Part shown: positions 20,606 to 56,744 of the stretch, in pieces | Layout of the letters: every line of letters starts with the position of its first letter | Numbering within the stretch: the stretch's first letter is position 1 | Assembly: GCA_026018925.1 (NCBI GenBank) | Contig: JAKSZU010000011.1 | Span: 41,778,141 to 41,842,140 of the forward strand | Source of the DNA: Tupaia tana | Lineage: Eukaryota > Chordata > Mammalia > Scandentia > Tupaiidae | Length of the DNA: 64,000 nucleotides | Reading direction: 5' to 3' | Translations under genes and position numbers: made by a program | The notes under the pieces: generated by a model | What the model saw: the letters and a program-made list of their open reading frames with translations, nothing else | Databases searched by the model: none | What the model was told of the DNA's origin: nothing

Positions 20606-56744
<36,139 letters not shown>

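Follow-up and report, generated by a model that had tools for sequence, protein, structure and literature searches.

Leucine in place of the TM17 tryptophan, and further pocket differences, in ABCC3 (MRP3) of Tupaia tana

We found that exon 26 of the Tupaia tana ABCC3 (MRP3) gene encodes LNLMIR, with leucine (codon TTA) opposite Trp1242 of human MRP3 in a phmmer alignment to PDB 8hvh. The initial annotation of this DNA, which read LNLMIR with TTA here against human LNWMIR, is borne out by the codon and by that alignment. The replacement is one of eight differences from human among 17 residues of the substrate pocket, and the reading that we favor, at a probability of about 0.55, is that Tupaia MRP3 would be a working pump whose substrate pocket has been retuned.

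The gene and its exon 26

ABCC3 lies on the minus strand of the window, by which we mean the whole 64,000-nt stretch analyzed. Exons 2-31 (20609..56744, minus strand) were found collinear from 56744 down to 20609 by tblastn with a human MRP3 query whose two TMDs matched PDB 8hvh. The exons were joined junction by junction with best-scoring GT-AG pairs, and such a pair scores best at all 29 junctions. Exon 1 falls beyond the window, at the equivalent of window position 73273 (locus L002), and encodes MDALCGSGKFW before the donor GTAAGG; its human counterpart is 4 residues longer. Over exons 2-31, 1254 of 1505 aligned residues (83%) are identical to human MRP3 and 251 differ. Among solved ABCC proteins, bit scores are higher with MRP3 than with MRP1 both for TMD1 (560 vs. 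390) and for TMD2 (556 vs. 360); by this sequence comparison human MRP3 is the best match and the gene is an ABCC3 ortholog. In human, the syntenic neighbors of ABCC3 are CACNA1G and ANKRD40.

The nucleotide-binding motifs are the same as in human MRP3. The NBD1 alignment has GPVGCGKSS, FLLDDP and the signature stretch, with Walker A, signature and Walker B all there, and that of NBD2 has GRTGAGKSS, LSVGQRQLV and LVLDEAT. Identity with human reaches 96–98% in exons 16, 18 and 28.

Exon 26 (32644..32745, minus strand; 102 nt, phase 0) encodes TM17 together with the first part of the linker that leads to NBD2, as placed by splice sites, frame and PDB alignment. It had been called intact, and we agree: its splice sites are good (acceptor CTTCGTCCAG before GTAACA, donor GACAGAG followed by GTGGGT), it contains no stop, and 26 of its 34 residues are identical to human, leaving seven differences besides Trp1242. 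A splice-broken exon 26 was considered and rejected, the GT-AG junctions being sound. The codon in question occupies 32725..32727 of the minus strand, as found by codon reading and PDB alignment; the plus strand reads TAA there, which on the coding minus strand is TTA, for leucine. Two base changes are required to pass from TGG to TTA. The flanking Asn and Arg, said to be retained, are indeed both kept as Asn1241 and Arg1245, and Arg1193 is likewise unchanged relative to human MRP3. Other changes in the same helix are S1233A (exon 25) and F1238V, A1239G, M1246N and M1247L (exon 26). The initial annotation put the leucine at about residue 1235; the site is right, while our own count, with exon 1 and the alternative exon 7 donor described below, comes to about 1231, a harmless discrepancy.

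Exon 7 (53001..53132, minus strand), examined by junction scoring and frame, contains an in-frame TAG (53009-53011), codon 251 of the reading frame joined from exons 2-31, if the donor at 53001 is used. An alternative GT donor 12 bases upstream, giving an exon end at 53013, keeps the phase and excludes the TAG, which overlaps the GT of this alternative donor. The junction scores are 40.0 for the 53001 donor and 39.0 for the alternative; both donors are weak (0.87 for 53001 vs. 0.24 for 53013) by a simple donor matrix. Only with the alternative donor do exons 2-31 form a single open frame, and apart from the TAG they have no frameshift or stop. The earlier view of a natural substitution rather than decay is supported by the intact exon 26 and, with the alternative donor, by the open frame of exons 2-31, but must be qualified by this TAG late in exon 7.

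Exon 25 has an acceptor made up wholly of C (CCCCCCCCCCCCAG, 34654-34667, minus strand), and such runs are prone to sequencing error. A tRNA-like SINE with a poly-A tail is abundant across the window (for example at 31561-31865), with 73 blastn pieces, 40 of them 150 nt or longer. Scanning the 64-kb window against Rfam and for tRNAs gave no match.

The TM17 column in paralogs

The DNA of exon 26 has a single match in the 2.95-Gb assembly. Searching with its protein sequence (E up to 10) returned one ABCC3 match, the exon itself, together with five other exons (E 8e-4 to 6.7). A second ABCC3 copy bearing Trp was considered and rejected, one copy having been found among the best candidates scored in the assembly. 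The TM17 Trp column holds Trp in four of the five paralogous exons and Phe in the fifth: LNW in an ABCC1-like exon and LQW in an ABCC6-like exon, both on contig C275, LNW in an ABCC2-like exon on C111 and in an ABCC8/9-like exon on C231, and LNF in an exon of an ABCC2-like gene on C309. These gene names are our assumption, from resemblance; more exons of the same kinds of gene occur close by on C275, C111 and C309. The LNF exon (L010) lies with other ABCC2-like loci at 166.36-166.42 Mb of C309, and this paralog is perhaps ABCC13, which is a pseudogene in human. The ABCC6-like TM17 (L008, 1501-1593) reads LQWAVRSW; human ABCC6 has LQWVVRNW.

The PDB chains of MRP1, MRP2 and MRP3 that were aligned all have Trp at this column, where Tupaia ABCC3 has Leu. 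Chain 5uj9 is bovine MRP1 by its record, and we take 8vt4 and 9br2 to be human and 8rq3 to be rat. The PDB chains matched included no non-human mammalian ABCC3, the ABCC3 proteins there being human only. A scan of viral contigs with exon 23 for stray mammalian homologs gave 26 pattern matches, 0 of them relatives by tblastn. In human ABCC5 the residue at this column is Phe according to a table of PMC8267652, although the text of that source calls the Trp conserved in all human ABCC proteins. By these alignments the column is strongly, though not absolutely, conserved; we treat the Trp as a feature of the pocket and do not count it as defining ABCC3.

Substitutions in the substrate pocket

Seventeen pocket residues of human MRP3, Trp1242 included, are tabulated in PMC10886794. 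The initial annotation was right that a key pocket residue is replaced, Trp1242 being in this published list, but the swap does not stand alone, and we rejected an isolated W1242L change: eight of the 17 residues differ from human. Besides W1242L, codon comparison on the minus strand gave K318L (TTG, 51698..51700; Lys332 of MRP1, a position with Lys in MRP1, MRP2 and human MRP3), Y371W (TGG, 47246..47248; Phe385 of MRP1), T535S (TCC, 44725..44727), W539F (TTC, 44713..44715; Trp553 of MRP1), L580F (TTT, 44476..44478), F1238V (GTG, 32737..32739) and M1246N (AAC, 32713..32715). The nine residues kept are F375, F426, L429, M584, M1089, Y1188, R1193, N1241 and R1245.

The difference rate in the pocket (8/17) exceeds that of the TMDs (127/647; hypergeometric P=0.009) and of the whole aligned protein (251/1505; P=0.003). 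Because the question had arisen from Trp1242, the test was repeated without it, and 7/16 still differ (P=0.022). When the five exon-26 columns are removed, 5/12 differ (P=0.06), and against the residues lying no more than six positions from the pocket, of which 30/115 differ, P=0.07. The enrichment of the pocket for differences from human is moderate. The kind of replacement was also examined, counting base changes from any codon for the human residue: at least two are needed for six of the eight pocket replacements, compared with 23 of the 119 other TMD differences (P=0.0018). Counted per residue, such two-base replacements number 6/17 in the pocket vs. 23/630 in the rest of the TMDs (P=4e-5); the pocket count is 5/16 without Trp1242 (P=3e-4) and 3/12 without the exon-26 columns (P=0.01). 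On inspection of the codons, five of the six two-base pocket changes involve adjacent bases, so each could be one tandem mutation, which could explain part of the excess. The excess of two-base changes suggests directional change rather than drift, as judged with human as the sole ortholog.

At 248 TMD columns the residue is identical in human MRP3, MRP1 (bovine for TMD1, human for TMD2) and human MRP2; Tupaia ABCC3 departs at 25 of these, among them three of the seven pocket columns in the set, K318, W1242 and M1246 (P=0.024). Measured against human MRP3 over the 17 pocket columns, Tupaia ABCC3, MRP1 and human MRP2 each differ at eight. Two of the Tupaia residues recur in these relatives, Phe at 539 and 580 being found also in human MRP2 and Phe at 580 also in MRP1.

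Tupaia's own ABCC1 and ABCC2 served as controls; a filter removed weakly matching columns for both, so that diverged columns are left out. For ABCC1, with bovine MRP1 as the reference over TMD1 and human MRP1 over TMD2, 0/17 pocket columns and 47/642 TMD residues differ. For ABCC2, referred to human, four of the 17 pocket columns differ (F426Y, M429L, V535I, F539L), with 98/528 in the TMDs (P=0.39); without the weak-match filter the TMD figure becomes 116/549 and the same four pocket differences are found. All 17 pocket columns are covered with and without the filter. ABCC2 is the better control because the divergence rate of its TMDs is close to that of ABCC3, and in the direct comparison the pockets of ABCC3 (8/17) and ABCC2 (4/17) are not significantly different (P=0.14). 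Both paralogs keep the residues of the Lys318, Trp1242 and M1246 columns.

Substrates and alternative explanations

To our knowledge, Trp1242 of MRP3 has so far been studied by engineered mutation alone, and no natural replacement of it surfaced in a limited collection of literature gathered on ABCC3/MRP3 more broadly. Oleschuk in 2003 reportedly tested Ala, Cys, Phe, Tyr and Pro mutants, Leu not being among them. The non-Pro mutants are said to have raised estradiol-glucuronide transport and kept that of taurocholate, to have lost much methotrexate and leucovorin transport (leucovorin being kept by the Tyr mutant), and to have had LTC4 transport lowered by about one third. The Tupaia protein has the same residue swapped as these mutants, and unlike them has seven more pocket differences. 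Rat Mrp3 is taken to keep K318, Y371, W539 and W1242 (LNWMIR) and to differ from human at 535, 580, 1238 and 1246; if so, four of the eight Tupaia pocket changes are not shared with rat.

The homologous residue of MRP1 is Trp1246, whose mutagenesis affects substrate choice: according to PMC8267652, its substitutions impair transport of estradiol-glucuronide and methotrexate but not of LTC4, while changes at Arg1197 and Arg1249 of MRP1 cause global transport loss even when the charge is kept. The MRP1 mutant W1246C is described as losing drug resistance and keeping verapamil-stimulated glutathione transport (PMC7203140). Trp995 of human MRP4 is in the pocket list of PMC10886794, and Trp1242 is a contact in three of the seven columns of a docking table in PMC12108423. 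The initial annotation had called the Trp a determinant of specificity for glucuronides and related anions; this fits Trp1246 of MRP1, whereas the effect reported for Trp1242 of MRP3 is not simply a loss of glucuronide transport.

Compared with human ABCC3/MRP3 (PDB 8hvh, 8hw2, 8hw4), the Tupaia protein has the same domains and shares Arg1193, Asn1241 and Arg1245; it is unlike it at 8/17 pocket residues, with Leu for both Trp1242 and Lys318. MRP1 chains and Tupaia's own ABCC1, in contrast, retain both the Trp and the Lys. Some of the Tupaia states occur elsewhere in the family, as tabulated in PMC8267652: Leu at the Lys332 column in human ABCC5 and ABCC6, and Phe at the Trp553 column in human ABCC6; at the Trp1246 column human ABCC5 has Phe where Tupaia ABCC3 has Leu. 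These are, however, paralogs with other substrates, and the Tupaia sequence fits MRP3 best.

Several other explanations must be weighed against a retuned pocket. The one that we take most seriously, and that is compatible with retuning, is that Leu1242 is typical of the animal's whole clade, in which case the change would be of older date and shared beyond this species; compared with human as the sole mammalian ortholog, it carries no date, and LNWMIR in rat Mrp3, as we assume it to be, weighs little here, since rat need not belong to that clade. It is also conceivable, though we rather doubt it, that the divergence is neutral or weakly constrained, a broad-specificity pocket tolerating W1242L and the other changes with little physiological effect. 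Pocket columns do vary freely, as the eight differences in each of MRP1 and MRP2 illustrate, the excess is of borderline significance against neighboring residues or without exon 26, and Phe is found at the Trp column in one of the five same-genome paralogous exons and in human ABCC5 (PMC8267652). Against this, K318, W1242 and M1246 are identical across MRP1, human MRP2 and human MRP3, all three are kept by Tupaia's own ABCC1 and ABCC2, and two-base replacements are in excess in the pocket.

An early loss of function, with ABCC3 turning into a pseudogene and constraint on the pocket relaxed, we regard as improbable. It would account for the exon 7 stop, which is encountered with the slightly better-scoring 53001 donor, the alternative being the weaker by the simple donor matrix; yet splicing at 53013 yields an open frame, the remainder of exons 2-31 is undamaged, exons 16, 18 and 28 are highly conserved, the ATPase motifs are intact, and relaxation alone would not focus changes on the pocket. 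Least probable by far is a sequencing or assembly error at the TTA codon: the codon is known from one assembly copy, but an error would have to comprise two substitutions in one codon, with no indel, in a clean exon that has seven other differences from human.

Under the retuned-pocket reading, the pump would still fold, bind ATP and export organic anions. Loss of the indole (W1242L) and of the lysine (K318L) would be expected to weaken handling of folates, of methotrexate and of LTC4 and other glutathione conjugates. Bile salts, and steroids conjugated to glucuronide or sulfate, would remain substrates, held by the arginines that are retained and by the hydrophobic wall. The MRP1 data and the reported MRP3 mutant data together suggest a pump favoring bile salts and steroid conjugates and poor for folates and glutathione conjugates. 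More tentatively, and on balance doubtfully, positive selection on the lineage may have rebuilt the MRP3 pocket, swapping out the Lys and Trp common to MRP1, MRP2 and human MRP3 and shifting basolateral efflux from folates and glutathione conjugates to other anions, which might be lineage-specific bile salts or dietary conjugates.

A natural replacement of Trp1242, accompanied by other pocket changes in a conserved gene, would allow the residues that determine the substrate choice of MRP3 to be tested by evolutionary comparison. It would also caution against assuming that MRP3 pharmacology known in human or rat applies to this animal; the range of compounds handled by Tupaia MRP3 may differ.
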